Below the pieces are notes generated by a model. The model was not told where the DNA came from, did no database searches, and saw only the letters and a list, made by a program, of their open reading frames with translations. A DNA stretch of 64,000 nt from an uncultured Bacteroidales bacterium. GTDB lineage: Bacteria > Bacteroidota > Bacteroidia > Bacteroidales > Paludibacteraceae. The stretch spans positions 62,001 through 126,000 of the forward strand of contig CACXYM010000007.1 in the NCBI GenBank assembly GCA_902771935.1, read 5' to 3'. Within the stretch, counting starts at the first letter, position 1; each line of letters opens with the position of its first letter. This document shows positions 8,111 to 51,563 of the stretch, one piece after another. The position numbers were made by a program, and so were the translations under genes.

Positions 8111-8459
8111 GCTTTTACTTTACATACCGCCGATTATTTTTATGCTCACAGCGATGGGCAAGGCTCCCAATCGAATTGCTGAAGACGGCAACTACCAATG
8201 CTATCAGACCAAAGACAGTAGCATCATCGAAGTGCTAGACTATGGTAAAAAGGCGCTGGTAGTGGAGACTGTATGCGCCCCTATTTGCTCTTCTCACGCG
8301 CACATTTACGATACAAAGACAAACAAAGTCATTCGTCAAGTGAAGCCAACAGTCAATGGTGTTTTTCCTTACGCATGGATAGAAGACGGCTCACTTCATT
8401 GGCGCGATAACACCGTTGAGATACTGGACGACCAAGAAAAAAAAGACTATAACCATTAA
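8103..8459 (+). CDS. Small exported protein, possibly related to DUF3256
   Basis: 118 residues from ATG 8103, preferred over an upstream TTG at 8097. The N-terminus is a short hydrophobic segment (FRLLLYIPPIIFMLTAMG) consistent with a signal peptide. The rest contains VVETVCAPICSSHAHIYD and later WIEDGSLHWRDNTVEILD, reminiscent of the second half of DUF3256 proteins from Bacteroides, though the protein is only about half the usual size. That link is tentative. It overlaps ispF by 8 bp and its stop lies in a period-7 array that runs into aroK. No enzymatic motif is seen. Confidence 0.6.
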   Translation: MFRLLLYIPPIIFMLTAMGKAPNRIAEDGNYQCYQTKDSSIIEVLDYGKKALVVETVCAPICSSHAHIYDTKTNKVIRQVKPTVNGVFPYAWIEDGSLHWRDNTVEILDDQEKKDYNH

Positions 8460-9027
8460 ACATTCAGCATTAAACATTAAACAGCCGATCTATTTAATCG
8501 GCTACATGGGATCCGGCAAGACCACTACAGGACGCTTGCTGGCTGAGAAGCTTGGTTGGCACTTTGTCGATTTGGACGAGGCTTTTGAGACCATTCACGG
8601 CTATACTCCGGCTGAATATATCCGCGAGTTCGGTATTGAAGCATTTCGCCGCAAGGAGAAATATGTATTGGAAGACTTAGCTGAAGTGCCGATAGAAAAG
8701 GTTATCTATGCAACAGGAGGCGGCTATCCGTGCTGGGAAGACAATATGGAGTGCCTCAAAGAATTAGGTACAAGTATTTATCTGAGATGGAAGCCTGAGC
8801 ACTTGGCTAAGCGCCTGATGCTCACCGATTTAAGTGAGAGGCCTATTCTGCAAGGAAAAACAGAAGAAGAACTATTAGCCTGCATTTTGCCTCAGTTAGA
8901 AGCGCGTGAACCTTTTTATGCGCAGGCAGATATCACCATTGAGGCACCATTGGGCGAATTGAGTGAGGATAATGACGAACAATTAGCAGAGCATTTATGT
9001 CAATTAATCAAATCCAAGACGAGATAA
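8416..9027 (+). CDS. aroK: Shikimate kinase
   Basis: The P-loop GYMGSGKTTTGRLLAEKLGW, then FVDLDEAFE, the shikimate-binding FR..E segment and the ATGGGYP loop identify shikimate kinase (ATP plus shikimate to shikimate 3-phosphate, aromatic amino-acid pathway). The start is unclear. The only standard start in frame is TTG 8416, which overlaps the previous gene by 44 bp and gives an unusually long lead. Between it and the P-loop there is no ATG, GTG or TTG, only ATT codons at 8455 and 8476 inside a period-7 repeat. The true N-terminus may therefore begin at ATT. sufE overlaps its end by 31 bp. Confidence 0.9.
   Translation: MRYWTTKKKKTITIKHSALNIKQPIYLIGYMGSGKTTTGRLLAEKLGWHFVDLDEAFETIHGYTPAEYIREFGIEAFRRKEKYVLEDLAEVPIEKVIYATGGGYPCWEDNMECLKELGTSIYLRWKPEHLAKRLMLTDLSERPILQGKTEEELLACILPQLEAREPFYAQADITIEAPLGELSEDNDEQLAEHLCQLIKSKTR
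8454..8481 (+). repeat. Period-7 tandem array at the aroK junction
   Basis: Four units in register: CATTAAA, CATTCAG, CATTAAA, CATTAAA. The array contains the TAA stop of the upstream gene (8457-8459) and lies just before the aroK P-loop codons. Confidence 0.8.
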
Positions 9028-9434
9028 TCGAAGAATTCAGTTATTTAGACAACTGGGTAGATCGCTATGAATTACTATCCGATTACGGTAAGGGAGCGCC
9101 AAAGATTCCGGAGTCGGATATGGTGGACAAAAATCTCATTGATGGCTGTCAGTCTAAGGTGTGGCTTACGGCCGAGTTAGATCGTTCTAATCCCGACAAG
9201 CCGCTGGTTATCTTTCATGGCGATTCGGACGCATTACTTGTACGCGGCATAGTAGCGTTACTTATCCATGTCTTGAGCGGACACACTCCAAAAGAAATTA
9301 TCGATGCAGATTTATACTTCATCGACAAGATCGGTCTTCAGGAGCATCTGTCTCCTACTCGTAATAATGGAGTTGTTGCTATGCTGAAGCAAATGCGTTT
9401 ATTTGCTCTCGCTTATCAATCCGTTATCAAATAA
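8997..9434 (+). CDS. sufE: SufE-family Fe-S assembly protein
   Basis: 145 residues matching SufE: EI.EEF..L..W.DRYE.L...GK..P, then the conserved Cys in LIDGCQSKVW, then FHGDSDALLVRGIVALL and a C-terminal MLKQM helix. SufE accepts persulfide sulfur from a SufS-type cysteine desulfurase for Fe-S cluster assembly in the cytosol. ATG 8997 overlaps the aroK end by 31 bp, suggesting coupling. Its 3' end overlaps the convergent ftsE by 36 bp. No other suf genes are nearby. Confidence 0.9.
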   Translation: MSINQIQDEIIEEFSYLDNWVDRYELLSDYGKGAPKIPESDMVDKNLIDGCQSKVWLTAELDRSNPDKPLVIFHGDSDALLVRGIVALLIHVLSGHTPKEIIDADLYFIDKIGLQEHLSPTRNNGVVAMLKQMRLFALAYQSVIK

Positions 9435-10067
9435 CAGATTTCTTCCCGGGAAGCGCTCGGGCCACATCACATTATGTGTGGACAAGACAACGCACATTCC
9501 GGCTTTACTGATGGAATAAAGTAATTCCATTATCTCAGCACCCGTTTCCGGGTCCAAGTTTCCGGTTGGCTCATCTGCCAAGATAATCTCCGGTGAGTTA
9601 AGTAGTGCGCGCGCAATCACGACACGTTGTTGTTCACCACCAGATAGTTGATAGGGCATCTTGTAGGCTTTCTTGTCCATACCGACTTGCTTGAGAATCT
9701 CCAAGACATGATCCTTCATGATGCGTTTGTTCTTCCAGCCGGTAGCTTTGAGCACGAACAGCAGGTTTTCTTCCACCGAACGGTCCGTGAGCAACTGATA
9801 GTCTTGAAAGACGATACCTATTCTGCGGCGCAGATAAGGCAACTTGCGACGGCGGATTTTAGTCATATCATAGTCCAGCACATGCGCTTGACCTGCTGCA
9901 ATGGGAATCTCGCCATAGAGCGATTTCATAAAGGTGGACTTACCCGACCCTACTTTTCCGAGCAGATAAACAAACTCGCCGCTGCCTATTTCGAGATTGA
10001 CATTGTTCAGGACTATCTGTTCCGCCTGACACAACTCAACGCCTTCATATCGAATCAGTTCAGCCAT
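9399..10067 (-). CDS. ftsE: FtsE-like ABC transporter ATP-binding protein
   Basis: 222 residues forming a complete ABC ATPase: Walker [11 protein letters not shown]-loop FQDYQLL, signature LSGGEQQR, Walker [13 protein letters not shown], and H-loop STHN. Size and motifs fit FtsE, the cell-division ATPase that pairs with the membrane protein FtsX to control peptidoglycan hydrolases. No ftsX is adjacent. LolD/MacB-type ATPases are the alternative, but the N-L-D..TG pattern and the [16 protein letters not shown] segment favour FtsE. It starts one base inside the stop of the DUF349 gene (TAATG), so the two are probably coupled. Its end overlaps sufE. Confidence 0.85.
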
Positions 10068-11533
10068 TACTCTGCCGCATCAATTTGGTTAATCTTCTCC
10101 TCCAACTCAGCGAGTTGCTTTTTGAGGCCATCAATTTTCTTCTGCATATCCTCGACCAACTTATTGCCGGACTTGGATTTGCCTGTAAAGAAGAGGATAT
10201 TATTCTCAGCGGTCTTAATCTCTTGCTGGAGGTTGGTGTACATGCGAACCAGTTTGTCGCGGTCGCCGCTTGCCAACACTTTCTCTCCGCGAGCACGATG
10301 GCGCTCATTACGAGTCTCTTTCACTACTTCGCGTTTCTTATTAAAGAACTCATCACACGTAGCGGTAAACTTCTTCCAAATCTCGTCACTATACTTACGC
10401 GCCACAGGACCAATGGTCTTCCACTCTTTCTGCAATTCCACCAGAGCAGCGGAAGTCTCTGCCCACGCTTCACTATCCTTGAGGGCTTCCGCTTTTTCTA
10501 TCAAAGCACGCTTCTTAGCCAAGTTCTCGGAGAACATATCACGCATATCTTTGTAGAATGTGGACTTAGCCTTAAAGAACTCCTCACATACGCTACGATA
10601 TTCGTCGTAGATAGCTTGGTTTTGTTTCTTTGGAGCAAAACCTATCGTGCGCCACTCTTTCTGCAATTCCTGAATCGTCTCAACAGCCTTATCCCATTGT
10701 TTATTGGACTTGAAGGAAGAATAATCTATTTCGCGAATCTTTGCGATAATAGCCTGTTTCTTCTCTAAGTTCTCTGCCTCTTTGGCGTGCAGTTCATCGA
10801 AGTAAGCTTGGTGTTTCTTATTGATAGCGGACGAAGCCTCTTTGAATCGGTTCCACAAGTCCTCACGCAACTCGCGTGCTACAGGACCTATTTCTGCCCA
10901 TTCGTCGTGCAATTGCTGCAAAGCACGGCTTGCTTCCACGATATTCTTATTCTCTTTCAGTTTCTCTGCAGCCTCGCAAAGGAGCGTTTTCATCTCGAGG
11001 TTCTTCTTGAAATCCAAGTCGCGCAACTCGATGTTGATCTTCACCAAGTCGTAGAACTGCTCTTGATACTGCTGGTATTTCTTCCACACTTCCTGTGCTT
11101 TAGGAGCCGGAACAGCGCCGATAGTCTTCCACTCGGCCTGCAAATCTTTCATCTTCTTGAGATTGTCCATCACGTCAGCTGTTTCTGCTTCCGCCATGGT
11201 TTTCATCTGCTCCAAGATATTCTCCTTCCGCAGTAAGTTTTGTGCTTGTTCCTCTTCAATCTGTTTAGCCACTTCAGCACGTTTGGTTTTGTACGCATTT
11301 AATAACTCACGGAACTGTTGTTCAGCCTCATCCAGCGTCGGTTGCCAATTCTCAAGCACTTGTCCGGCCTGTTCAGCAGCCTCTTCAGCAGCCTTTTTCA
11401 AAGCTGCTTGTTCCTCATGATACTGACGGTAGAATTGCGTTTTCAGCGCTTCCACTTTGTCCTTAACTTCCGTTACATTCTGCTCCAGCAGAGATTTCAG
11501 CTCATCTACGAGCGATTGTTTATCGTTTGCCAT
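10067..11533 (-). CDS. DUF349 repeat coiled-coil protein
   Basis: 488 residues from ATG 11533. Longer reading upstream crosses promoter-like DNA and looks non-coding. The protein is highly charged (Glu/Lys/Gln/Ala rich), with long predicted coiled coils and at least four DUF349 units, recognisable by the core EWK.IG.V/AP followed about 15 residues later by W..F...C..FF..K. No signal peptide or membrane segment is seen. Function is unknown; the family is widespread in Bacteroidetes. It is translationally linked to ftsE, which may point to an envelope or division role (inference). Confidence 0.88.
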   Translation of the reverse strand: MANDKQSLVDELKSLLEQNVTEVKDKVEALKTQFYRQYHEEQAALKKAAEEAAEQAGQVLENWQPTLDEAEQQFRELLNAYKTKRAEVAKQIEEEQAQNLLRKENILEQMKTMAEAETADVMDNLKKMKDLQAEWKTIGAVPAPKAQEVWKKYQQYQEQFYDLVKINIELRDLDFKKNLEMKTLLCEAAEKLKENKNIVEASRALQQLHDEWAEIGPVARELREDLWNRFKEASSAINKKHQAYFDELHAKEAENLEKKQAIIAKIREIDYSSFKSNKQWDKAVETIQELQKEWRTIGFAPKKQNQAIYDEYRSVCEEFFKAKSTFYKDMRDMFSENLAKKRALIEKAEALKDSEAWAETSAALVELQKEWKTIGPVARKYSDEIWKKFTATCDEFFNKKREVVKETRNERHRARGEKVLASGDRDKLVRMYTNLQQEIKTAENNILFFTGKSKSGNKLVEDMQKKIDGLKKQLAELEEKINQIDAAE

Positions 11534-11667
11534 AATCAGAGACGCCCCATGGGGCGAAGTACATAAATTCGCTGCAAAAGTACTGCTTTTATTTGATATA
11601 TGCAAAAAAAAATGCAGAAACCTTAATTTTTCTGCACTTCTTGCTAAGAGACTTGAGACGGACAATT

Positions 11668-12297
11668 TTAAATATGTACTCCGAGTCCTATCTTGGCAAA
11701 TGCCTCGTAACCTATATTCGTTTCCAAATATCCGAACACTCTCCAGCTACCGAAAGCAACACCTATGGGCGTCAGGTTAAATGCCGGAAGCCATGTGACT
11801 TGAACGGGATGCGAGTTCCCTTTTCCGTCGTCATATCCCGCTTCATAACGCGTATCTTTTATGTAGGCAGCTGCTCCTGCATCCAAACCCGAATAGAGTT
11901 GAACGTGCTCCATGTTGAGATACGTGAACTGAACCGACGCCACCAGCGATACCGCATGGTCGAACGTCACTCCTTTCTTCAGTGCCTTTGGATCATCTTT
12001 CTTAGCTGTATATAAGTCGTAAAAATCGCCTTCCCAATTACCCTTGACACCGACGCGGCACCAGCGCTTTGTTTGGTAGTAATACTGCAAACCGTAGTTG
12101 CCGTAATATTTCACATTCTGCGAGTGACCGGCTGCAACCGGTATCCAAGAAAACAAGGATTTTGCCAAATAAAAGCCACTTACTGCACCTGCGCTTATGG
12201 AAAGTGAATGAGGATTTTCCTGCCAGGCAGGTTCCGCTGCTTGAATTGTCGATAAACTCAACAGCGCTATTAAGGACAACAAAAATGTACGTTTCAT
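11668..12297 (-). CDS. Outer-membrane beta-barrel protein, unknown function
   Basis: 209 residues with a clear signal peptide (MKRTFLLSLIALLSLSTIQA) and then alternating aromatic/polar strands such as YYGNYGLQYYYQTKRW and VQFTYLNMEHVQLYSGLDAGAAAY. It ends in a beta strand (EAFAKIGLGVHI), typical of small Bacteroidetes barrels. A TACCTTTG box lies about 30 bp upstream on the minus strand, but the -33 element is poor. It precedes the DUF349 gene with a 134-bp gap. No family name can be assigned. Confidence 0.7.
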   Translation of the reverse strand: MKRTFLLSLIALLSLSTIQAAEPAWQENPHSLSISAGAVSGFYLAKSLFSWIPVAAGHSQNVKYYGNYGLQYYYQTKRWCRVGVKGNWEGDFYDLYTAKKDDPKALKKGVTFDHAVSLVASVQFTYLNMEHVQLYSGLDAGAAAYIKDTRYEAGYDDGKGNSHPVQVTWLPAFNLTPIGVAFGSWRVFGYLETNIGYEAFAKIGLGVHI

Positions 12298-12644
12298 AAT
12301 TGAATAATTTTATTGTTTTGAATGCAAAGGTACAAATTTTGTGCCATATATACAAGAAAAATGCAGAAAGCGTTAAGAAAGTTCAATCGTCAGGTCAGGA
12401 ATTAAGTATTTGGGTGCTTGAGCCTTATTGTAGGAGTATACAAATCCTGTGTTAATCCTGTGTTAATCCTGTGTTGATGAGGTGTTAATGTTGTAGATTC
12501 ACTTCGAGTGGAAAGGAATGGGAGTTGTTTTAATGCTTTGCGTGATAATCATCAATGCAATCAAGGGCAGCGTCAAGGCATTTGTCATAGTTATTCCCCA
12601 TCCAACTTGTAAGTGGCCAATCAACGAAGTTTAGCATCAAATAG
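12298..12644. other. Intergenic stretch with a period-11 array
   Basis: About 350 bp without a convincing gene. It holds the promoter region of the minus-strand barrel gene near 12325-12345 and the period-11 array at 12443-12486. Short frames across 12530-12733 overlap the coding end of the next gene and have no support. Confidence 0.6.
12443..12486 (+). repeat. Period-11 tandem array
   Basis: Three perfect copies of AATCCTGTGTT (12443-12475) plus the variant GATGAGGTGTT (12476-12486). The next 11 bases, AATGTTGTAGA, may be a decayed unit. Confidence 0.85.
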
Positions 12645-13385: not shown

Positions 13386-13393
13386 GTTAGTGT

Positions 13394-13399
13394 CCTCCT
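13394..13399 (-). promoter_or_regulatory. Canonical Shine-Dalgarno sequence AGGAGG
   Basis: AGGAGG on the minus strand, 8 nt before the ATG at 13385. Nearly all other genes in the window lack such a site, so it stands out and also fixes the start. Confidence 0.7.
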
Positions 13400-13467
13400 A
13401 ATTAGATTTGATTTCAATTTGACACTGCAAAGGTACTACATCTTTGCATATCATGATATACTGCTGT

Positions 13468-14526: not shown

Positions 14527-14671
14527 CTTTCTTTCCGATAAAATAAGACTATTATATTTTTTACACTTTTAAAAATTACACGCTGCAAAGATAGTGCTTT
14601 TGTCTGACATAACCAAGGAAAAAAGTGGAAATTTTATTTTTTGTATCAATCTTTCTACTTTTCGCGGAGGA

Positions 14672-15145: not shown

Positions 15146-15166
15146 AATGATTATTGCTTTAGAATT

Positions 15167-15361
15167 TTATATACATATGTTAGCTCGCAACAGACGACCA
15201 TAGTGATAACATGCATGTACGTAATCCGTCCCTTCTGCACGAAGGCTGTCGGCAGCAACAATCACCTCTCGCGCCTTATGCAGCGCCGGATGTGAACAGC
15301 CCGTCAGCATTAAACTAATGCCCAATAACAACAGCAGAAATATGTGCCGCTTAATTATCAT
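15167..15361 (-). pseudogene. Lipoprotein stub, likely truncated remnant
   Basis: 64 codons from ATG 15361: a lipoprotein signal (KRHIFLLLLLGISLMLTGC) then SHPAL..A...VAADSLRAEGTDY. That start resembles the beginning of larger Bacteroidales TPR-type lipoproteins (ADSLRA.G..Y), but the frame stops about 40 residues after the lipidated Cys. A TACCTTTG box at 15366-15373 lies only 4 bp before the ATG, so the transcript would be nearly leaderless if it is used. It could be a genuine small lipoprotein; I favour a truncated remnant. Confidence 0.45.
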
Positions 15362-15389
15362 GCTGCAAAGGTATTGCACTTTTTTCGAG

Positions 15390-16841: not shown

Positions 16842-16882
16842 ACGTATATTTTCTACAAATTTCGTGCAAAAGTATAAAAAAA

Positions 16883-16914: not shown

Positions 16915-16938
16915 CGCCAAATTTGAATAAATAATGCT

Positions 16939-17704: not shown

Positions 17705-17732
17705 CGTTTAGCGTTTAACGTTTAGGGTTTAG
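17705..17732 (+). repeat. Period-7 tandem array before rsmD
   Basis: Four units: CGTTTAG, CGTTTAA, CGTTTAG, GGTTTAG. It ends 2 bp before ATG 17735. Confidence 0.85.
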
Positions 17733-17734: not shown

Positions 17735-18221
17735 ATGAGAATCATCTCTGGTAAATATGGGGGGAGGCGTTTGTCTCCCCCTAAAAATATCACAGCAAGG
17801 CCTACAACGGACTTTGCCAAGGAGAGTTTGTTCAACCTACTCAATAACCGCCTTGACTTTGAGGGAATAGACGTGCTCGACTTATTTGCCGGAACAGGAG
17901 GAATAGGTCTGGAGTTTATCGCAGCAAAACTTTATTATTTCCGCCTGCAAGCAGTTAGGAGTCAACAACTTAACCGTCATCCGTGGTGACGTATTCCGCT
18001 ATCTAAATGCCTGCAAAATACGCTATGACTTCATTTACGCTGACCCTCCTTACGCATTAGACCGATTGCCCGAAATACCGGACATTATTTTCGATAATGA
18101 GCTGTTAAAAGAAAATGGAATGTTCGTTCTTGAACACTCCAAATCCAATGATTTCAGCAGCCATCCGCATTTCGTAGAGAAGCGCGTGTATGGCAGCGTC
18201 AACTTCTCATTCTTCCGCTGA
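17735..18221 (+). pseudogene. rsmD: 16S rRNA m2G966 methyltransferase RsmD, broken by internal deletion
   Basis: The first frame reads MRIISGKYGGRRL.PPKN..ARPTTDFAKESLFN, then the SAM motif LDLFAGTGGIGLEFIA, and then ends at TGA 17987-17989. A second frame resumes at about 17946 with ISACKQLGVNNLTVIRGDVFRYL, the catalytic YADPPYA, and ends at TGA 18219-18221. Intact RsmD has about 16-18 extra residues at the break (the V..VE acidic SAM ligand region). A deletion of 3n+2 bases explains both the missing residues and the frame change. No full-length enzyme can be made unless this is an assembly error. Confidence 0.8.
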
Positions 18222-19355: not shown

Positions 19356-20591
19356 TTATTCTTTGACAACTAAGCGTGCTGTACGACGCGTTGTTTGAGT
19401 AAGTAGGATATCTCTATGCTCCTGTTCTTTCTTTAATATCTCAGGCGAGGTCCCACGAATAGTGAGCAAACTCAAGCCTTCGTTGTAGGTAACCCGGAAA
19501 GCATCGCTCAGTTCTTTTATCGCATCCGCAACATAGCGTGTATTATCCACGCAAACAGAAATAGTGACAGCTGACGATTGAATTAGGGACACTTTCAGTC
19601 TATGACGGTGGATAATGTCAAATATATGGCTTAGACTTTCTTCCAAAATAAAGGAAAAGTCCTTAGCGCGCATCGTAATGAGCTTTTGGTTCTTACGCCA
19701 AATATAAACCGGCACATCCACGCGTTTGGTGGTCTCGCAGATAACGGAACCTTGTTGCTCAGGAGCATTAAACGGTCTTACGTAAAGCGGAATCTTCTTA
19801 TTCTCGACAGGGCGAATACTCTTCGGGTGAATAACCTGTGCGCCGCTATAAGCTAATTCCACCGCTTCGTCGTAACTCAGTTCCGGAATAAGTATCGTAT
19901 TATCCACCAAGCGTGGATCGGCATTGAGTATTCCGGGCACATCTTTCCAAATGGTTACGCTCTCGGCATCGACAAAGTTCGCCAATAGCGCGGCAGAGTA
20001 GTCACTACCCTCGCGACCTAATGTCGTAAGTAACCCGTCCGAAGTTCCACCGATAAAACCCTGAGTAACAAACACATGCGACTTACTCTGTCTCAACGCG
20101 CCCTTTATGTTCTGCGCCGAAAGAGTTGTATTCACTTTTGCTTCGCGGAAGGTCGTGTCCGTAATCAGCAACTGCGGCATCATCAACAATTCGTTGGCTA
20201 TGCCGTTGGCATTAAAATACGCACTAAGCAAGCGGCTGGAATTCAGTTCGCCGGTACTAACCACTTGGTCGTAAAACTCATCGTAATTAGCAGACCGCGG
20301 AATGTCCGTCACTAAATTTGTTGCAAATAAAGAATCTTGAATAGCCTTATTTAGGCCTAATTTTTGCGCAAGAGCACGGTGTTGATCACGGATAGCCTCG
20401 TACTCACGCAGAGCCTCGTCGTCACGGTTCTCCCAAAGGGCATTAACCACCCTCTCTAAAGCATTGGTTGTCTTGCCGATAGCGGACACAACAACAATCA
20501 GATCGCCTTCTTCTTTAGCAACAATCTGCAAAACGTTTGCTATGCCTTGCGCATCCTTAACCGACGCACCACCGAACTTATAGACTCGCAT
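19356..20591 (-). CDS. lysC: Aspartate kinase
   Basis: 411 residues. VYKFGGASVKDA at the start, VVSAIGKTTNALE, the active-site region TLGREGSDYSAALLA, and a C-terminal regulatory half with ACT-like strands (VSLIQSSAVTISVCVDN). It phosphorylates aspartate as the first step to lysine, threonine and methionine. The C-terminal ACT region is shorter than in classical LysC enzymes, so feedback control may be reduced (inference). No homoserine dehydrogenase fusion is present. The ATG is 1 bp from a period-7 array that contains the ribH stop, indicating tight coupling. Confidence 0.93.
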   Translation of the reverse strand: MRVYKFGGASVKDAQGIANVLQIVAKEEGDLIVVVSAIGKTTNALERVVNALWENRDDEALREYEAIRDQHRALAQKLGLNKAIQDSLFATNLVTDIPRSANYDEFYDQVVSTGELNSSRLLSAYFNANGIANELLMMPQLLITDTTFREAKVNTTLSAQNIKGALRQSKSHVFVTQGFIGGTSDGLLTTLGREGSDYSAALLANFVDAESVTIWKDVPGILNADPRLVDNTILIPELSYDEAVELAYSGAQVIHPKSIRPVENKKIPLYVRPFNAPEQQGSVICETTKRVDVPVYIWRKNQKLITMRAKDFSFILEESLSHIFDIIHRHRLKVSLIQSSAVTISVCVDNTRYVADAIKELSDAFRVTYNEGLSLLTIRGTSPEILKKEQEHRDILLTQTTRRTARLVVKE

Positions 20592-20592
20592 A

Positions 20593-20620
20593 AATCACAA
20601 ATCACAAATGACAAATCACA
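20593..20620 (-). repeat. Period-7 tandem array at the ribH/lysC junction
   Basis: Plus-strand units AATCACA, AATCACA, AATGACA, AATCACA. The ribH TGA (complement of 20616-20618) lies in the array, and the lysC ATG (20591) begins 1 bp beyond it. Confidence 0.85.
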
Positions 20621-21119
20621 AATTCGCCATCCTCATAGCTGTGATAGCTCCTTCTACGCCCTTATTGCCCAGTTTGCCGCCTGCCCTATCCTGTGCTTGC
20701 TCTTTATTAAGCGTCGTGAGCACGGAGAAGATAACGGGCACATGTTTCCCGTCCCACCAACTCGTTACGCCTGCGTTAAGAATAGTCACACCTTGCGTCA
20801 CGCTCTGACACACATAATCGAAATGCGGTGTATCGCCTTGTATCACGCACCCGATAACGATTACCGCGTCGGGTTTACGCCAGCCCTTTTTGATGACTCT
20901 TGCAGCAGCATAAGTCAGCTCCACCGTACCGGGCACATGCGTCACAGAGATATGTTTCTCTTTCACGCCATGCTTGATGAGCGTATCAATCGCGCCCTGA
21001 GCCAAAGCAAAAGTGATTTCGCTGTTCCAATCGGCAACAATAATTGCATAACGCTGACGTGCTAAGACATCAGCGTTAGGCAGTAAGGAAGCGTCATAAT
21101 TAGACAAATCCGTGGTCAT
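20616..21119 (-). CDS. ribH: 6,7-dimethyl-8-ribityllumazine synthase
   Basis: 167 residues, typical length. Motifs: ADWNSEIT (substrate pocket), VPGTVELTYAA, VIGCVIQGDTPHFDYVC with the catalytic His, and GVLT-like FSVLTTLNKEQAQDRAGGK.GNKG. It condenses the ribityl-pyrimidine with dihydroxybutanone phosphate, the penultimate step of riboflavin synthesis, usually as a 60-mer capsid or pentamer. It overlaps the upstream TPR gene by 1 bp (TAATG). No FMN riboswitch is visible upstream, and no other rib genes are nearby. Confidence 0.96.
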   Translation of the reverse strand: MTTDLSNYDASLLPNADVLARQRYAIIVADWNSEITFALAQGAIDTLIKHGVKEKHISVTHVPGTVELTYAAARVIKKGWRKPDAVIVIGCVIQGDTPHFDYVCQSVTQGVTILNAGVTSWWDGKHVPVIFSVLTTLNKEQAQDRAGGKLGNKGVEGAITAMRMANL

Positions 21120-23951: not shown

Positions 23952-24938
23952 TTACACGCGGAAGCCGATTATCTCACGCACTTCTTTTATCGTAGCGGCG
24001 GCACGTTGACGGGCTTTTTCCGCACCGGCTGCTGCCACTTCATCGAGGAAGGTTTGGTTAGCCTGATACTCTTGGATTTTCTCGCGGATAGGAGCACAGA
24101 AAGCATTAATATCTTCAGCCAGTTGTTTCTTCAAGTCGCCATAACGAATAGTCATATTGTTGTAGGCATCGTTAAAGAAATCATAGGTTTCCTTACTCGA
24201 CACTAAATCCATAATAGTGAACAAGTTAGCAATTGGTTCGGGTTTTTCTTGATTCAGTTGCGTTGGTCCGGAGTCTGTTACGGCACGCATTACTTTCTTC
24301 TTGATGGTAGCTTCGTCATCGCACAAGTACAGCGCATTGCCTTCGCTCTTACCCATCTTGCCAGTGCCGTTCAGTCCCGGCACTTTAACCGCGTTCTTAT
24401 TGAAGTGATAGGACTCAGGCTCTTTGAAGTATTCCACGTTGTAGATGCGGTTGAAACGACGTGCAAAAAGGCGTGCCATCTCCATATTCTGTTCCTGGTC
24501 CTTACCTACCGGCACTTTGTCAGCCTTGTGCATCAATATATCCGCTGCCATCAGACAAGGGTATGTCAGAAGGCCTGCATTCACATTATCCGGCTGCGTG
24601 CGGGCTTTGTCCTTGAAGGATGTAACTCGCTCTAACTCACCAAGATAGGCATTCATATTCAGGTAGAGATATAACTCCAGCACCTCTTTCACATCGCTCT
24701 GGATATAAATTGGTGCTTTGTTCGGATCAATACCGCAAGCCAAGTATTCACTAAGGATTACGCGCGCGCTACGGCGAATATCTTCCGGTGTCGGATGCGT
24801 TGTTAGAGAGTGCCAGTCGGCAATAAAGAACATGGACTCATACTCATCCTGCATCTGCACGAAACTCTTCACAGCACCAAAATAGTTACCAAGGTGCAAA
24901 TTACCCGTAGGCCGTATACCAGATATTACTCTTTCCAT
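23952..24938 (-). CDS. trpS: Tryptophanyl-tRNA synthetase
   Basis: 328 residues. Class I signatures: the HIGH-like TGNLHLGNYFGA near residues 11-22 and the KMSKS-like GKMGKSEGNA about residue 195, plus the TrpRS-typical MADILMHKAD.VPVGKDQEQ..E. It charges tRNA-Trp in the cytosol. Normal length for bacterial TrpRS. It follows an Lrp-family regulator; the junction carries a period-7 array containing the regulator's stop and ending 2 bp before the trpS ATG. No attenuator or T-box is visible. Confidence 0.97.
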   Translation of the reverse strand: MERVISGIRPTGNLHLGNYFGAVKSFVQMQDEYESMFFIADWHSLTTHPTPEDIRRSARVILSEYLACGIDPNKAPIYIQSDVKEVLELYLYLNMNAYLGELERVTSFKDKARTQPDNVNAGLLTYPCLMAADILMHKADKVPVGKDQEQNMEMARLFARRFNRIYNVEYFKEPESYHFNKNAVKVPGLNGTGKMGKSEGNALYLCDDEATIKKKVMRAVTDSGPTQLNQEKPEPIANLFTIMDLVSSKETYDFFNDAYNNMTIRYGDLKKQLAEDINAFCAPIREKIQEYQANQTFLDEVAAAGAEKARQRAAATIKEVREIIGFRV

Positions 24939-24940
24939 AA

Positions 24941-24975
24941 GTATTCAGTATTCAATATTCATTAATCATTCAATC
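24941..24975 (-). repeat. Period-7 tandem array at the lrp/trpS junction
   Basis: Plus-strand units GTATTCA, GTATTCA, ATATTCA, TTAATCA, then a decayed TTCAATC. The Lrp-gene TGA (complement of 24966-24968) is in the fourth unit; the trpS start is at 24938. Confidence 0.8.
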
Positions 24976-32287: not shown

Positions 32288-33568
32288 TTAGAAAAGCGTA
32301 AGGGCTTCGCCCACGACGTAATTGCTGCCACCGATGAAGATAATGTCTTTGTCGGTGGCTTCTTTTTGCGCGGCTCTTACGGCGGCTTCAACGGTTGGAA
32401 GAGCTCGTCCTTTGCCGAACTTAGCTTGTAACTCTTCCGCCGGAATAGCGCGATGCGTCTGAGCTTGCGTGAAATAATAGTGCGCATCCTTTGGCAGGAG
32501 TTTGAGCACAACGTCCACATCTTTGTCGCTTACCATACCAAAGACGATGTGTAATGCTGAATGTGGATTGTGTAATGTTGAAAGTTGCTCAGCGACGTAC
32601 TTGATACCGTGGGAGTTATGGCCTGTATCACAAATAGTTAGAGGTTTTTCGCAGAGTGTTTCCCACCTACCCCGTAAACCGGTTAGCGTGCAGACGTCCG
32701 CATAACCGTTAGCTATTGAGGAAGGTGTAATGTGTAATGCGAAATGTGTATAATTCCTCAAGACTTGGAGAGCGACATAGGCTGTTTGCTGATTATGTTC
32801 TTGATATATGCCATTCAGTTGGCAAGCAGGCGCTTCGCGCAAGCGACGTTTGCGCAAATATCCGCATTGGTCCGCAAACCATATTCGGCAATCGGTCATT
32901 TCTAATCCATCTCCGTATATACCATTTTGTTTTGCAGCTTCGATGAAGACCAGAGCTGTTTCGGGATCTGTTTCACCAATTACACACGGGACATTGGGTT
33001 TGATGATTCCAGCCTTCTCTCGCGCGATATCCTTTAAGGTGTGCCCCAAAAACTCCGTATGGTCAAAACCGATATTAGTAATGACAGATAACAACGGCGT
33101 GATTATATTCGTCGAGTCCAGTCTTCCTCCGAGTCCCACTTCCACAACAGCTATATCTACCTGCTGCTGAGCGAAATAATCAAAAGCAAGTGCCATTGTG
33201 GTTTCAAAGAAGGAAGGCTTTACTTGGTCTAAAAATATCCTATTATCTTCCACGAATTGCACCACATTTTCTTTTGGAATCATCTGCCCGTTGATACGTA
33301 TACGTTCACGGAAATCCACCAAATGCGGCGAAGTATATAATCCCACTTTGTAGCCTGCTGACTGCAATACAGCAGCAATTAGATGAGAAGTAGAGCCTTT
33401 GCCATTTGTTCCGGCAACGTGAATACTGCGGAACTTGGTATGGGGATTACCCAAATGCTCCATCAAGGCAATGGTATTATCCAAACCCGGTTTATAGGCA
33501 CTTGCACCCACCAAATGAAAGGCGGGTGCAGAGTCATAGAGATACTGGATTGCTTCGCTATAGGTCAT
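32288..33568 (-). CDS. folC: Folylpolyglutamate/dihydrofolate synthase
   Basis: 426 residues. HVAGTNGKGST (ATP loop), SPHLVDFRERIRING, the Mur-ligase-type VEVGLGGRLDSTN, NIGFDHTEFLGHT...EKAGI, and LRGRWE with CDTGHNSHG place it in FolC. It adds glutamate to folates in the cytosol. Two stretches of its DNA (32549-32583 and 32725-32752) are period-7 tandem arrays of GTGTAAT-like units; they are read as ...LHNPHSALHI... and ...THFALHITP... just where homologs tend to be shorter. Start ATG 33568 lies 30 bp from a period-11 array. Confidence 0.93.
   Translation of the reverse strand: MTYSEAIQYLYDSAPAFHLVGASAYKPGLDNTIALMEHLGNPHTKFRSIHVAGTNGKGSTSHLIAAVLQSAGYKVGLYTSPHLVDFRERIRINGQMIPKENVVQFVEDNRIFLDQVKPSFFETTMALAFDYFAQQQVDIAVVEVGLGGRLDSTNIITPLLSVITNIGFDHTEFLGHTLKDIAREKAGIIKPNVPCVIGETDPETALVFIEAAKQNGIYGDGLEMTDCRIWFADQCGYLRKRRLREAPACQLNGIYQEHNQQTAYVALQVLRNYTHFALHITPSSIANGYADVCTLTGLRGRWETLCEKPLTICDTGHNSHGIKYVAEQLSTLHNPHSALHIVFGMVSDKDVDVVLKLLPKDAHYYFTQAQTHRAIPAEELQAKFGKGRALPTVEAAVRAAQKEATDKDIIFIGGSNYVVGEALTLF
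32549..32583 (-). repeat. Period-7 array translated inside folC (1)
   Basis: Plus-strand units GTGTAAT, GCTGAAT, GTGGATT, GTGTAAT, GTTGAAA, in register over 35 bp. Translated in frame without a stop. Confidence 0.75.
32725..32752 (-). repeat. Period-7 array translated inside folC (2)
   Basis: Plus-strand units GTGTAAT, GTGTAAT, GCGAAAT and a diverged GTGTATA. Same unit family as the first folC array and the murA junction array. Confidence 0.7.
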
Positions 33569-33598
33569 ATTAGTGTCCCGATGGGATCAGGCTTCTAA

Positions 33599-33664
33599 CA
33601 TAGTAATGTCATAGTAATAACATACTAATCACATAGTAATCACATACTAATCACATACTAATTT
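33599..33664 (-). repeat. Period-11 tandem array upstream of folC
   Basis: Six 11-bp units: CATAGTAATGT, CATAGTAATAA, CATACTAATCA, CATAGTAATCA, CATACTAATCA, CATACTAATTT. It fills most of the gap between the aminotransferase stop (33664) and folC. Confidence 0.9.
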
Positions 33665-39761: not shown

Positions 39762-40856
39762 TTAGTCTTTGGGTACGAAGAACGGTCCGCGTGGGCGGTC
39801 ATCCTTCTCCACCCGCTCCGGAATAACCAGCGGGTCTTTGTTTATCTCGGCTGTGATAGCGCGGTTATGCAGCATATCTATAGCCATATATAGTGCATGC
39901 GCAAACGACAGATGGTCGGCTTGATTCTTACCTGCAATGTCGTACGCTGTGCCATGGTCAGGCGAGGTACGTACTATTGGAAGACCGGCAGTATAGTTCA
40001 CCCCACTCATATCCAGACTCTTGAATGGAATCAGTCCTTGGTCATGATACATGGCCAATACCGCATCAAAGTGCGTATACATCCCAGCTCCGAAAAAGCC
40101 ATCTGCGCTATACGGGCCAAAGGCCATAATGCCCTGCTCGTTAGCTTTCACGATAGCCGGTTTGATAACTGACTGCTCTTCTTGTCCAATCAGGCCTTTA
40201 TCACCTGCGTGCGGATTGAGTGCCAACACGGCGATACGCGGTTTACGAATCATGAAATCATCCTTCAGTGCCTTGTTCAGCGTCGTCAGCTTGCGTATGA
40301 TACGTTCTTCGCTTATCATCTGCGCAACTTTCGTTATCGGAGTATGATTACATACTAATGCCACTTTCATTTTCTCACTGACCATCATCATTAGGCTGTC
40401 CGTCTTGCCTTCTTCAGCAAAAACAGAAGTCAGATACTCCGTATGACCCGTAAAATGGAATTGTTCTGATTGGATGTTCTCTTTGTTAATCGGTGCTGTA
40501 ACGATGGCATCCACCAAGCCAGCTTTGAGATCCTTGCAGGCACGCTCCATACTTGCGAAAGCAGCTTTACCGCCTTCCTGTGTCGATTGGCCTATAGCTA
40601 CAGGCACATCGTCCGGATAGCATGAAACCATACTCAATCTACCGTCTTTTGCATCCTTGGGAGACAGAACCAATTGGAATTGTAAATTATGATATTCATC
40701 ACTGAGCGTTGAAGCATGCTCTTTAAGCACTTTCAAGTTACCGTAAACCACTGGTTTGCAAATTTCACACACATGCGCATCCGCCAGTGTCTTAATAATC
40801 ACTTCGTAACCTATGCCGTTTATATCTCCGGCCGTAATTGCTATTGTTGGTTTCAC
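39762..40856 (-). CDS. pdxA: 4-hydroxythreonine-4-phosphate dehydrogenase
   Basis: 364 residues. [14 protein letters not shown] at the start, the metal-site segments TGHTEYL and [23 protein letters not shown] and [19 protein letters not shown] are PdxA signatures. It oxidises 4-phosphohydroxythreonine in the DXP-dependent route to pyridoxal phosphate. The start is GTG 40856, immediately beside a period-7 array that also contains the stop of the nitroreductase gene. alaS follows 13 bp after its stop. Confidence 0.95.
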
Positions 40857-40891
40857 AATAATTAATGAAAAATGAATAATTAATAATTAAT
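40857..40891 (-). repeat. Period-7 tandem array at the nitroreductase/pdxA junction
   Basis: Plus-strand units AATAATT, AATGAAA, AATGAAT, AATTAAT, AATTAAT. The nitroreductase TAA (complement of 40887-40889) lies in the last unit, and the pdxA GTG abuts the first. Confidence 0.8.
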
Positions 40892-41399
40892 ATTTGTTGA
40901 AGTGTATTTTCTCATAGAGAAGTTTGTCCAAGTCGTAATCCTTGCGTTCTTCGTCCTTATAGCCGACGGTAACCACACAGATAACAGTGAGGTTCTCGGG
41001 TACTCCTGTCAACTTTTTGACAAGACTCTCTGCGTCTTCACGACCCTTTATATGGCACCAACAAGCACCGAGTCCTTGTTCCTCTGCGGCTAACAAAAGA
41101 TGTTCCGCCACAATCGCTCCATCAAAAAGAGCAGTAGTAGACTTCTTTTCATCAACGGCAACTACAATAGCCGCCATCGCAGTCTCCAACATACCAGCAC
41201 CATATTCCTTACAAGGGGCCATAGCACGTATTGTAGGCACGTCAGTAACCACGACAAACTCCCATGGATTAAGCCTTTTACCACTTGGCGCCATCAGTGC
41301 ACAACGCAACATATAATCGAGTTTCGCGCGCTCCACCGGCTGAGATGTATATTTGCGTATTGAGCGTCTATGCCGGCATAATTCTAAAAAACTATTCAT
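40887..41399 (-). CDS. Nitroreductase-family flavoprotein
   Basis: 170 residues. RRSIRKYTSQPVE near the N-terminus, ALMAPSGKRLNPWEFVVV (FMN contacts), and LLLAAEEQGLGACWCHI are the nitroreductase pattern. The protein should be a cytosolic FMN homodimer using NAD(P)H; the physiological substrate is unknown. It lies between the holin-like gene (37 bp) and pdxA. Confidence 0.9.
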   Translation of the reverse strand: MNSFLELCRHRRSIRKYTSQPVERAKLDYMLRCALMAPSGKRLNPWEFVVVTDVPTIRAMAPCKEYGAGMLETAMAAIVVAVDEKKSTTALFDGAIVAEHLLLAAEEQGLGACWCHIKGREDAESLVKKLTGVPENLTVICVVTVGYKDEERKDYDLDKLLYEKIHFNKY

Positions 41400-44051: not shown

Positions 44052-44075
44052 AATGAATAGTGATTAAGAAAGTAT

Positions 44076-45554: not shown

Positions 45555-45564
45555 ATAGATAGTT

Positions 45565-47136: not shown

Positions 47137-47137
47137 A

Positions 47138-49003: not shown

Positions 49004-49780
49004 TTACTTCTTTCTCAGTTTTTTATGCTTGGCACTAAGTTTTTCCGTGCTTACCGGTTGTGTCAGCCGTTTGTATTCGGCTTTAGCGGCTTCCATCTGC
49101 TCGAGGAACGCTGGACTATTATGCAAAGCGCAATATCCGATAGCAGCGCCAACACGCGATGCATCCACATCACTCTGCCAGTGTGCGCCGTCGATAACAC
49201 GGTTCTCGCAATACAACCAGCCACGGGCAAAAATCGTATCGGCATTATTAGGAGCAATCTCCGCCAACAACAAAGCACAAGTGAAACCGCGGTGGGTATG
49301 ACCGGAAGGATACGACCCTTCCCCACGCAAGTACTGCGCTTCGCCATCTGTCAACAACGAGTCGCCCAGTAACTCAAACGGACGCAGGCGGTGATAATAG
49401 GCTTTGGGTGCCACACGCATGGCGTCAGTGGTGGTGAGACTGGTAATGAGCAGTTTCCAAATTTCCGGTGTTCCTTGCTCGGAAATCTCCAAGCCGAACG
49501 GCACATTGAACTCCGCAAACAGCGCTTCGTATGACCAAACGGCGTCGCGCTTTACCATCGCAGCTCGTTCCTCGTTCTGACGTTGTTTCTTGCCCCAAGC
49601 ATAGCGCATCAGGTCATTGGAGAACTCCGGGCTATCAAAAGCAGGCGGAGCCGGCAAGCACTTAATCAGATTCGGCAGTTGGTCCACTGTCATATACGGT
49701 TTTACTTCGTCTTGTGCCATACAAAGCGTGGAGATCATCACCACTGCTAATAACAAATACTTTTTCTTCATATATTTCAT
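49004..49780 (-). CDS. PAP2-superfamily class A acid phosphatase
   Basis: 258 residues. Signal peptide ending CMAQ. The three PAP2 motifs are present: K.YYHRLRPF, GSYPSGHTHRGF, and NRVIDGAHWQSDV with the catalytic His. This resembles bacterial class A non-specific acid phosphatases, which act in the periplasm on phosphomonoesters or lipid phosphates. ATG 49780 or 49771 can start it; the second gives a compact signal peptide. It has its own promoter (49813-49844) and leads the PAP2-cotH-dsbD-DUF1846-rlmB run. Confidence 0.9.
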   Translation of the reverse strand: MKYMKKKYLLLAVVMISTLCMAQDEVKPYMTVDQLPNLIKCLPAPPAFDSPEFSNDLMRYAWGKKQRQNEERAAMVKRDAVWSYEALFAEFNVPFGLEISEQGTPEIWKLLITSLTTTDAMRVAPKAYYHRLRPFELLGDSLLTDGEAQYLRGEGSYPSGHTHRGFTCALLLAEIAPNNADTIFARGWLYCENRVIDGAHWQSDVDASRVGAAIGYCALHNSPAFLEQMEAAKAEYKRLTQPVSTEKLSAKHKKLRKK

Positions 49781-49812
49781 TGATTATTTTGTTTTATCTA
49801 ACTTTCCGGCGG

Positions 49813-49844
49813 CAAAGGTACTACAAAAATTTGATATATACAAA
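49813..49844 (-). promoter_or_regulatory. Bacteroidetes-type promoter for the PAP2 operon
   Basis: Minus strand TTTG (49841-49844), 20-bp spacer, TACCTTTG (49813-49820), 33 bp before the start at 49780. Confidence 0.8.
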
Positions 49845-49858
49845 TTTTGGAGGAGAAA

Positions 49859-49879
49859 AATGTGGAATGTGGAATGGAA
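49859..49879 (+). repeat. Short period-7 array
   Basis: AATGTGG, AATGTGG, AATGGAA: three units upstream of the PAP2 promoter. Shorter than the other arrays and not at a start codon. Confidence 0.5.
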
Positions 49880-49930
49880 TTATGCAAGCGCATGATTCTT
49901 AGCCGCAAGGGCACGATAAATGCAGTGCAT

Positions 49931-50120
49931 GATTCACATTTTCACAAATTCACACATAATTGTGGGTTGATGATATGGTAATAATATATAAATATAATAT
50001 ACATATTATATTATAATATTATGGGGATTTTTTGAAGATACACAGATGTGTGAATTTGTGAATTTGTGAATTTTGGTATGGTGTTTGAGGGTAGCCTAAG
50101 GGTTGCTTATCCCTTGCTAC
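49931..50120. repeat. Composite repeat, locus 2: concentric long palindrome plus hairpin
   Basis: Outer arms of 27 bp (about 49931-49957 and 50046-50072) match in inverted orientation at 24 of 27 positions, including a perfect 17-bp core. At the exact same centre (50001.5) sits AATATAATAT-AC-ATATTATATT (49991-50012). The right arm contains GTGAATTT three times (50050-50073). A second hairpin follows, GTAGC-ct-AAGGG...CCCTT-GCTAC (50091-50120), whose core nearly equals that at 27743-27760. Confidence 0.7.
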
Positions 50121-51527
50121 ATACACAAATTTTGGCTCACTTTTTTGATTTTGTGTAATAAATGAGATTATACGACGGGAAGCCAGGCATCGCCGAGAGC
50201 TTGGAGTGTAATTTAGTCTTCGCGGGTGATATGGGCACCGATGGCGTTGAGTCGGCCTTCGATCGATGTTCTCGTAACCACGGTCTATTTGGTCGATATG
50301 GTCAATACGGCTGGTGCCATCAGCTGACATGGCTGCGATAAGCATGGCGATACCGGCACGGATATCGGGCGAAGTCATGTTGTTCTTCTTGAGCTGTCGC
50401 TGGTGGTCATGTCCAATAACGACGGCTCTGTGCGGGTCACAGAGAATGATTTGTGCGCCCATGTCAATGAGTTTATCTACAAAGAAGAGACGCGACTCGA
50501 ACATCTTTTGGTGGATGAGCACGGAACCTTGCGCCTGTGTAGCCACAACGAGAATGACAGAGAGTAAGTCGGGCGTGAGACCTGGCCACGGCGCGTCTGC
50601 GACAGTGAGAATAGAACCATCAAGGAAGGACTCTATCTGATAGTGCTCCTGCGCAGGGATATAGAGGTCATCGCCCCGTTCCTCGACCTTAATGCCAAGG
50701 CGGCGGAAAGATTCAGGGATAATACCTAAGTCCTTGACAGACACGTTCTTAATGGTAAGTTCGGAGCCAGTGATGGCAGCCATACCGATAAAGGAACCGA
50801 CTTCAATCATATCGGGCAGGAGGGTATGGTCGGTGCCGTTGAGTGAGGACACGCCCTCAATAGTGAGGAGGTTGGACCCTACTCCGCTGATTTTTGCGCC
50901 CATGGCGTTGAGCATCTTGCACAACTGCTGGAGATATGGTTCACAGGCGGCGTTGTAGATAGTGGTTGTACCCTTGGCCATGACGGCAGCCATGACGATG
51001 TTGGCGGTACCGGTCACGGATGCTTCGTCAAGCAGCATATACGAGCCATTGAGCCCTTTCGGGGTGGTGAAATGGTAAGCGAGTTTATCCTGCTCGTAAA
51101 TGAACTGTGCTCCGAGGTTTGCCATGCCTTGGAAATGCGTATCCAAACGGCGACGACCTATCTTATCACCTCCCGGCTTGGCGTATGTCACCTCGCCAAG
51201 ACGCGCCAACAGCGGGCCGATGAGCATGACCGAACCACGCAGTTTATTGCAGCGTTTGAGGAAATCGGCACTATTAAGATAGTCGGTATCCAGTTTTTCC
51301 GCGCGGAACTTAACGACCCCTTTCTCGAGACGCGTGACTTGGACTCCCATCGCTGCGAGCAGGTCAATGAGGTTATTGACGTCGAGGATGTCAGGCAGAT
51401 TGCGGATAATAACGTCCTGCTTGGTCAAAACGACCGCGCAGAGCACCTGCAACGCCTCGTTCTTTGCGCCACACGGGGTAATACTGCCGTGGAGTTTATG
51501 TCCACCTTCTACGATAAAACTTGCCAT
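50019..51527 (-). CDS. murA: UDP-N-acetylglucosamine 1-carboxyvinyltransferase MurA, frameshifted C-terminus
   Basis: As read, 502 residues. Residues 1 to about 420 are normal MurA (GAKNEALQVL, KLRGSVMLIGPLLARLG, NMTSPDIRAGIAML), the cytosolic enzyme adding enolpyruvate to UDP-GlcNAc. The reactive-Cys position is Asp121 (KPGGDKIG), the form linked to fosfomycin insensitivity. After DRGYENID the frame is wrong. CGATCGAT at 50260-50267 contains a duplicated CGAT; removing 4 bp restores EGRLNAIGAHITRED and a stop at 50213-50215, so the intact gene would be 50213-51527. The present tail runs 80-odd residues into repeat DNA. Real mutation or sequence error cannot be decided here. Confidence 0.9.
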   Translation of the reverse strand: MASFIVEGGHKLHGSITPCGAKNEALQVLCAVVLTKQDVIIRNLPDILDVNNLIDLLAAMGVQVTRLEKGVVKFRAEKLDTDYLNSADFLKRCNKLRGSVMLIGPLLARLGEVTYAKPGGDKIGRRRLDTHFQGMANLGAQFIYEQDKLAYHFTTPKGLNGSYMLLDEASVTGTANIVMAAVMAKGTTTIYNAACEPYLQQLCKMLNAMGAKISGVGSNLLTIEGVSSLNGTDHTLLPDMIEVGSFIGMAAITGSELTIKNVSVKDLGIIPESFRRLGIKVEERGDDLYIPAQEHYQIESFLDGSILTVADAPWPGLTPDLLSVILVVATQAQGSVLIHQKMFESRLFFVDKLIDMGAQIILCDPHRAVVIGHDHQRQLKKNNMTSPDIRAGIAMLIAAMSADGTSRIDHIDQIDRGYENIDRRPTQRHRCPYHPRRLNYTPSSRRCLASRRIISFITQNQKSEPKFVYVARDKQPLGYPQTPYQNSQIHKFTHLCIFKKSP

Positions 51528-51535
51528 ATTTTTGT

Positions 51536-51563
51536 TGTGTAATGTTGTATGTGTAATGTTTAA
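51536..51563 (-). repeat. Period-7 tandem array at the murB/murA junction
   Basis: Plus-strand units TGTGTAA, TGTTGTA, TGTGTAA, TGTTTAA, with a decayed ATGTAAT after. The murB TAA (complement of 51560-51562) is in the last full unit; the murA ATG is 8 bp away. Confidence 0.8.

Follow-up and report, generated by a model that had tools for sequence, protein, structure and literature searches.

The 64,000-nucleotide (nt) stretch of DNA analyzed here (the window) comes from the genome of an uncultured gut member of the Paludibacteraceae (Bacteroidales; assembly GCA_902771935.1, contig CACXYM010000007.1, positions 62,001 to 126,000 of the forward strand) and carries short tandem arrays of seven-nucleotide units at the junctions between genes. 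Scans of this genome and of its relatives show that such period-7 arrays are a class beyond chance, concentrated at stop/start junctions, and that their anchor is the 3' end of a gene and not a start codon. The evidence points less to a switch acting at start sites than to a process that copies DNA. These results uphold part of an earlier reading of the window made without database searches (the sequence-only reading), namely the class of arrays and its concentration at junctions, and depart from it on a start-codon role, on local slippage as a sufficient origin and on the novelty of the kind.

Heptamer arrays at the gene junctions of the window

All six arrays named by the sequence-only reading are present at the claimed sites, as judged from Tandem Repeats Finder, the open reading frames (ORFs) and the sequence; the period-7 calls of the program cover 8450-8483, 17705-17732, 20592-20623, 24940-24961, 40863-40892 and 51536-51563. 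The upstream stop codon lies inside the array in five of the six, the exception being the array before rsmD, where the upstream ORF ends 13 nt ahead of it. For lysC, trpS, pdxA, murA and rsmD the next start follows 0-8 nt past the array, while aroK is without a clear start. The gene names agree with matches to the Pfam families SKI (aroK), Cons_hypoth95 (rsmD), AA_kinase, tRNA-synt_1b, PdxA and EPSP_synthase, the last of which leaves MurA and AroA undistinguished; no Pfam match was obtained for the ORF preceding aroK or for the one preceding rsmD. Nine matches at lag 7 or 14 with a score of at least 11 were found in the window (an array seen at both lags being counted twice), against none in 20 dinucleotide shuffles.

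On the plus strand, a CATTAAA array precedes aroK (8450-8483) and contains the stop of the upstream ORF (8457-8459). The region 8416-8506 around it is open in the aroK frame, and the kinase start may lie inside the array, before it or at a rare codon. A CGTTTAR array (17705-17732) separates an unnamed ORF (stop 17691) from rsmD (ATG at 17735), and its unit is found at five further places in our sample of the same genome. The rsmD frame itself (17735-17989) stops after 84 codons and covers positions 1-60 of the 182-position profile, perhaps because the genome or its assembly has a frameshift. The remaining arrays are on the minus strand. TTTGTGA units (20592-20623) separate ribH (DMRL synthase), with its stop at 20616, from lysC, which starts at 20591. 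TGAATAY units (24940-24975) lie where an Lrp/AsnC gene, with its stop at 24966, meets trpS, which starts at 24938. AATAATK/AATTAAT units (40857-40892) separate pdxA, which has its GTG at 40856, from a gene of the nitroreductase family with its stop at 40887. Lastly, TGTKTAA units (51536-51563; score 11 at lag 14, the best lag) separate murB, with its stop at 51560, from the EPSP_synthase-family gene that we call murA, which starts at 51527.

Excess of period 7 over chance

The scans covered 864 kb (42%) of the window's own genome, a 2.06-Mb draft, together with 62 named Paludibacteraceae loci (1.06 Mb), 337 kb of a second member of the genus (G014) and a 200-kb control stretch of Escherichia coli K-12 run with the same code. 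One genome per species was used throughout, and close pairs are species pairs. The best named trpS relatives of the window are Paludibacteraceae and Bacteroidales metagenome assemblies; ruminants are the source of many of these, and horses of some. Repeats were detected by lag matching (match +1, mismatch -2, score of at least 12), and genes were taken from a home-made caller, which placed 19 stops and 14 starts exactly for 20 E. coli genes picked from the table of L226; results on the stop side are therefore safer than those on the start side.

In the own genome we found 29 intergenic period-7 matches where 0.1 were expected, and 32 at period 11 where none were expected. The counts at periods 4, 5, 6, 8, 9, 10, 12 and 13 were 0, 2, 1, 6, 1, 0, 2 and 1, and those at the multiples 14, 21 and 22 were 16, 14 and 34; mainly genic matches numbered 21 at period 7 and two at period 11. 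The 62 loci gave 73 intergenic matches at period 7 (0.2 expected), 46 at period 11, 18 at period 9 and nine at period 8, with 37 (period 7) and five (period 11) mainly genic ones. G014 gave 27 at period 7 (0.0 expected) and ten at period 11. The E. coli stretch had no intergenic match at any of the periods 4-30. Beyond the family but within the order, 20 stretches (271.6 kb, 11 of them under 20 kb) gave four intergenic period-7 matches, three of them real; the fourth is a 422-base run of N in L167, which is also the source of the shuffle mean of about 1 there. A further seven matches came from 18 loci of Tannerellaceae, Bacteroidaceae and similar families. Sampling outside the Paludibacteraceae is too thin to draw a taxonomic boundary.

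It is extremely improbable that the arrays are a product of chance, of composition or of draft assembly. Such an explanation could appeal to the genomes, which are mostly draft metagenome assemblies, and to the home-made gene calls. It is refuted by the shuffles, with 0-0.2 matches against the tens observed, by a spectrum of the own genome in which only periods 7, 11 and their multiples stand out, and by the zero count of E. coli; arrays also occur in records that bear no metagenome-assembly label (Bacteroides sp. 224, L128; Parabacteroides sp. PF5-6, L119).

The commonest rounded copy number is four (126 of 343 arrays at a score of at least 10, a threshold that disfavors short arrays). At a lower threshold, the observed minus shuffled counts were approximately 83, 57, 70, 25, 10 and 21 for 2, 3, 4, 5, 6 and 7 or more copies. 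The greater number of four-unit than of three-unit cases hints at insertion in blocks, two-unit cases being at least as numerous. At the end of a G014 contig (L179, 1-337) lies an array of about 48 heptamers of the ACTCATC family, which suggests that long arrays may break assemblies.

Arrays are anchored at the 3' ends of genes

The position count took in 189 period-7 arrays from the own genome and the 62 loci. Co-directional gaps shorter than 100 bp (866 gaps) held 65 of these and longer co-directional gaps (306) held 37; eight were in 134 convergent gaps, seven in 142 divergent gaps, and 72 were genic or unplaced. The lysC, trpS and pdxA arrays of the window entered as short junctions and the aroK array as an overlapping junction (elsewhere it is classed as inside a called gene). 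Both neighbors of the rsmD array were missed by the caller, which put it in a false long gap when its real stop is 13 nt off, and the murA array, with its score of 11, fell below the threshold and was left out.

The sequence-only reading turned on enrichment at junctions, and the scan bears this out: per base, co-directional gaps under 100 bp hold about seven times as many period-7 arrays as longer ones do. Their density per 10 kb was 22.2 in short co-directional, 3.0 in long co-directional, 3.9 in convergent and 2.0 in divergent gaps, compared with 4.8, 3.2, 4.4 and 6.2 for period 11; the difference between short and long gaps has p = 7e-23 at period 7 and p = 0.22 at period 11. In gaps of at least 100 bp, where stop and start can be told apart by distance, 32 of 37 period-7 arrays were closer to the stop (binomial p 7e-6), versus 20 of 40 period-11 arrays. 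Seventeen of the 37 lay within 20 nt of the stop and two within 20 nt of the start, with about 5.9 expected for each if placement were uniform. Among gaps having a stop side, 84 of 110 period-7 arrays lay within 20 nt of it, compared with 8 of 16 at period 8, 4 of 20 at period 9, 16 of 63 at period 11 and 1 of 7 at periods 10, 12 and 13 together. At the short junctions, 43 of the 65 arrays contain or touch the stop, 36 have a called start 0-8 nt beyond them, and 26 do both; the median junction gap is 39.5 nt with an array and 10 nt without. Proximity to start codons in operons thus follows largely from the shortness of the junction spacers.

The sequence-only reading had proposed that the arrays are slippage-made junction spacers which set re-initiation or provide unstructured, A/U-rich start sites. 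Enrichment at stop/start junctions speaks for such a role, as do the 26 short-junction arrays that join stop and start; moreover, arrays are richer in A+T than other intergenic DNA (0.688 versus 0.606). Nevertheless, we consider it improbable. In long gaps the arrays keep to the stop and not to the start, and in-frame copies exist in the middle of genes. Folding of the region from -35 to +35 around the start, compared between 78 junctions with arrays and 866 without (starts from the home-made caller), differed by 0.34 +/- 0.41 kcal/mol at equal G+C content (Mann-Whitney p 0.71); start regions with arrays fold no less stably, and on this test we reject the unstructured-start variant. Unit words shared between sites, and the genic copies, are also left without explanation. 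A role in re-initiation or in start unfolding is not needed to explain the arrays.

Seven is not a multiple of three, and the sequence-only reading noted that a stop in one unit recurs in all frames. As an account of what the arrays are for, this is weak. A set of 110 arrays holds 421 stops in sense and 342 in antisense; 46 arrays have more of them in sense, 34 have more in antisense, and 30 are tied. All three frames are stopped in 61 of the 110 in sense and 59 in antisense, and 16 (sense) and 26 (antisense) are without any stop. The sense tilt is mild, and we reject a cassette for stopping all frames as their main purpose.

Heptamer arrays within coding sequences

Period-7 arrays occur at gene 3' ends, in tight operon spacers and, more rarely per base, in frame within proteins. 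In the own genome and G014 together, 37 arrays (the aroK array of the window included) lie wholly within called genes, and in-frame cases were seen in GltX, an aromatic amino acid lyase, a helicase, a glycosyltransferase, a nucleotidyl transferase and a Mur-ligase/FolC-like ligase of the window. The gene for this ligase (32288-33568, minus strand) holds an in-frame heptamer array at 32548-32582 and a second period-7 array, of GTGTAAT units, at 32725-32750. The GltX of the own genome has two arrays of AAAGTCG, the commonest unit of the sample. We compared it with 22 loci of relatives (L194-L215, with L216-L222 left out) read by motif search. At the first site the own spacer is 96 nt long with its array, and in the nine of the 22 loci where it could be read (eight of the genus, and G047) it is 21-66 nt and holds no array. 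The second site could be read in 15 loci, 14 from the genus plus G047, and an array is present there in G017 only, built of another word, ACCTGCC; the remaining loci did not fit the motifs. Copies in the middle of a gene cannot have a junction function.

Unit words are shared within genomes and differ between species

The sequence-only reading held that the unit differs at each site. This is true among the six arrays of the window, yet units recur elsewhere in the genome: AAAGTCG in seven arrays, AAACGCT in six, and AAACATT, AAATCAC and AAACTAC in three each. The recurrent words of G014 are others, namely AACTCAT (five arrays), AATTATG (four) and AAGAATT (three). Pairs of arrays with identical units make up 3.9% of 1317 pairs in the own genome, 2.2% of 1146 in G014 and 0.2% of 2548 between the two, the last being similar to random stop-proximal 7-mers (0.14-0.24%). 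When labels were permuted, the difference between within-genome and cross-genome pairs was reached in 0 of 2000 permutations for the identical fraction and in 33 of 2000 for mean distance. In the 62 loci, identity was 3.7% within a locus and 0.9% between loci (0 of 2000 permutations). Identical pairs of the own genome are not confined to neighbors, with 50 of 1287 pairs on different stretches and two of 39 on the same stretch, and by eye no shared flanks were found for two heptamer families (seven rows each).

A shared vocabulary could also reflect binding arrays for a trans-acting protein that recognizes RNA or DNA and whose heptamer preference shifts from species to species, as has been proposed for the TAACTGA repeats of Beggiatoaceae (PMC4679880). 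Words common to many sites of one genome and foreign to its genus-mate, and the sense-strand tilt of some families, would suit this. However, each genome has several recurrent words (five in the own genome and three in G014, counting those with at least three arrays), AAACGCT occurs in both orientations (three and three), and copies lie within the coding sequence of enzymes. We therefore find such a binding array quite doubtful.

The sequence-only reading pointed to a resemblance of most units to ATTnAnn; it is strict for three of the six words then listed, and across the scans 10 of 56 units in the own genome, 12 of 52 in G014 and 26 of 133 in the others match, against 5.1, 9.1 and 17.7 expected from letter-shuffled units. 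This consensus is weak, and we dropped it. Four or more GGG runs on one strand were present in 2/56, 2/52 and 2/133 arrays of the same three sets, and four or more GG runs in 14/56, 19/52 and 35/133.

Gain, loss and local seeding at single junctions

Arrays at the lrp-trpS and ribH-lysC junctions are present in several species, with different words, and missing from others. The ribH-lysC survey read 16 of 30 loci; the 14 in minus orientation were skipped, some of them being covered by a second junction survey. At one junction of L085, stop and start overlap (CAATGA); at that junction in L094, with equal last residues, the stop is followed by a 28-nt insertion of four units and then the start. 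The trpS arrays of L085 and L094 are built of different words. Between L086 and L087, one array differs by 42 nt. L089 and L097 have 97.5% identity across their aligned span, and of five heptamer sites in this pair one is unchanged. Differences in copy number, a mark of phase-variation simple sequence repeats when they occur between cells or strains, are thus seen here between species.

Between species, the units at these two junctions mostly differ. Units at one junction were within one mismatch of each other in none of 21 pairs at ribH-lysC and in two of 28 at lrp-trpS (seven and eight hand-entered units, with same or near genomes dropped: L026, L097, one of L036/L087, and L063), and we reject local seeding as the sole origin of the units. 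When kin were kept, identical units made up 6.5% of 123 same-junction pairs, versus 0.58% of 6606 pairs from different junctions; kinship accounts for part of this excess, and seeding may account for another part. Slippage was the origin suggested by the sequence-only reading; in a purely local form it leaves the identical units found at unlinked loci unexplained.

The pattern could instead belong to a functional element of the 3' end, such as a ribosome-free landing or processing site, or a spacer of about 40 nt that takes the place of an overlapping or abutting junction and loosens translational coupling. The strong position at stops, almost exclusive to period 7, speaks for it, as do the wider gaps at junctions with arrays, the peak of rounded copy number at four and the like stop bias described for the heptamers of Xanthomonas and Nostoc (PMC4692102). 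Against this, unit sequence varies freely among species and sites, the same units lie also within coding genes, arrays are gained and lost at one junction among relatives, the few neighbors identified by Pfam are functionally diverse (in a comparison that was not systematic), and folding at the start is unaffected. We regard an element of this kind as unlikely.

Period-11 arrays and other repeats of the window

The period-11 arrays are a different class: they fall into several dispersed families, are not tied to stop codons and may be regulatory or akin to miniature inverted-repeat transposable elements (MITEs). The window has three, an array of AATCCTGTGTT at 12443-12489 (plus strand; five copies in the 864 kb), one of the ATTAGTATGTG family at 33596-33662 (minus strand; about eight copies) and one of the AAAGGGTGATT/AAAAGGTGATT family at 61397-61442 (plus strand; about ten copies). 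Further examples include L136 12616-12661 and L135 8714-8759. Both families inspected for flanks, AATCCTGTGTT and AAAGGGTGATT/AAAAGGTGATT, have partly conserved ones, for example gagccttattgtaggag and cccgctaac, and look like dispersed elements; part of the left flank of AATCCTGTGTT is common to all five rows. Sharing of period-11 units within loci did not reach significance in the 62 loci taken alone (443 of 2000 permutations) and did so only once the own genome was added. Two different families of period 11/22/33 adjoin at L140 15578-15923, where together they form a block of some 350 intergenic bases.

Two other repeats were seen in the window. At 55344-55513 on the minus strand there are two tandem 86-base copies with an 87% match, which by eye alone resemble neighboring tRNA genes. 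Octamer repeats of TGTGAATT and near relatives, at 50049-50073 and 49932-49954, lie downstream of the murA-like gene in opposite orientation, flanking an A+T-rich stretch, and are possibly an inverted pair.

A proposed origin for the heptamer arrays

The observation of heptamer arrays at gene ends stands. Their period is specific (7, and separately 11), their copy number is often about four, and their words are shared within genomes and differ between species. On balance, it is somewhat more likely than not that the arrays come from a process acting on DNA which generates tandem heptamers and disperses them, and whose output is filtered by selection. New copies would arise by polymerase slippage with a step of 7 nt, and template switching would copy pieces of existing arrays to new sites; purifying selection would clear most insertions into genes, so that arrays persist at places where an insertion leaves the gene unbroken. 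The preference for stops may come about in one of two ways: the process may be drawn to gene ends, for example where translation ends and RNA free of ribosomes can form R-loops, or arrays at gene ends may bring a mild benefit.

Loss of mismatch repair can be rejected as the cause, because MutS_V was found in 40 of 41 genomes of the genus. Loops of 7 nt are poorly recognized by mismatch repair, which would fit the scarcity of short-unit repeats. A reverse transcriptase can be rejected as a requirement: RVT_1 was found in 11 of the 41 genomes and once in the own genome, and was not found in array-rich G014.

Several observations weigh against this mutational origin. Its weak point is the preference for stop codons, which is restricted to period 7 and perhaps 8. 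Under simple tolerance, long gaps would fill equally, and tolerance alone is therefore insufficient; the period-11 arrays show that the interiors of long gaps do accept repeats. In families with at least three members, the A-rich strand is the sense strand in 26 of 34 arrays, a tilt that a strand-blind DNA process alone would not predict. Some arrays at the trpS junction look grown from the native last codons, and we retain local seeding as a minor factor. Arrays of G014 share units more often when they lie on one stretch (4 of 80 pairs) than when they lie on different ones (22 of 1096), and some of the spread of units there is local. Finally, no insertion of an array was observed directly, and none of the pairs compared was known to consist of strains of one species.

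Relation to known heptamer repeats and significance

Several dispersed families of tandem heptamers within one genome are also seen in the short tandemly repeated repetitive (STRR) heptanucleotide sequences of cyanobacteria. The sequence-only reading knew of no description of arrays like these; two papers do describe the kind (PMC4692102; PMC4679880). The first reports GGGAATC and GGGGA(C/T)T heptamers of Xanthomonas and Nostoc, with no known function (PLoS One 2015, PMC4692102). Like the arrays here, they are tandem and dispersed, lie in both orientations and mainly between genes, show a strong bias to positions beside or over the upstream stop, are few between divergent genes and sometimes intragenic, and differ in length between close species; most of them have four units. 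The excess over chance, the proximity to stops and the genome-wide dispersal of units were all found here as well, the last with several words and not one. That study deals with one G-rich, quadruplex-forming word per genome, whereas here there are many words, mostly A+T-rich, which differ among species of one genus, and across the three array sets G-runs suited to quadruplexes are scarce (four GGG runs in only six of 241 arrays). It also reports that most of the Xanthomonas repeats have the same neighboring genes in both of two species, whereas here the sites turn over.

The second paper describes TAACTGA direct repeats in Beggiatoaceae, Cyanobacteria and five Bacteroidetes (MacGregor 2015, PMC4679880). 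These form arrays of 2-6 units in the gaps before starts, some overlapping the end of the upstream gene, and the set includes Paludibacter propionicigenes, with two sets, and other heptamers alongside in some Bacteroidetes. There, a single dominant word is placed towards the start, whereas our arrays are anchored at the stop, and exact TAACTGA doublets number zero in 864 kb, 337 kb and 1056 kb (2.26 Mb). In the long gaps a placement towards the start was not seen, with two of 37 arrays within 20 nt of it; at short junctions, 36 of 65 arrays do end 0-8 nt ahead of the called start. Conserved flanks of the MITE type were not found for the two heptamer families and were found for the period-11 family AATCCTGTGTT. 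Mrazek et al. 2007, as cited in both papers, treat long repeats with units of 5-11 nt and propose a slippage step matched to the contact of the polymerase; the arrays here are short and imperfect.

In the openly licensed literature, among the matches listed, no account of heptamer arrays was found for Paludibacteraceae or Bacteroidales by name, and for heptamer repeats at large no title on the subject was found beyond the two papers above. The kind is thus known; as far as this literature search reaches, what is new is that the arrays are A+T-rich, mostly free of quadruplex potential and built from many words, in vocabularies specific to each species. We offer only tentatively a wider picture, in which each species of the genus would have its own changing heptamer vocabulary and a dedicated process that copies blocks of about four units into gene 3' ends and protein loops; the repeats of Xanthomonas, Nostoc and Beggiatoa would then be special cases, and the quadruplex incidental.

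Earlier cases of tandem heptamers were treated singly, as quadruplexes in Xanthomonas and as a translational regulator in Beggiatoa. A whole genus with the same period and a Xanthomonas-like position at gene ends separates the general feature, which is period 7, few units and gene ends, from the unit sequence. In-frame insertions of these short repeats also reshape proteins such as GltX. With dozens of related species, and with the period-11 arrays as a built-in control that lacks the stop bias, the group offers a setting in which to ask what is owed to mutation and what to selection.

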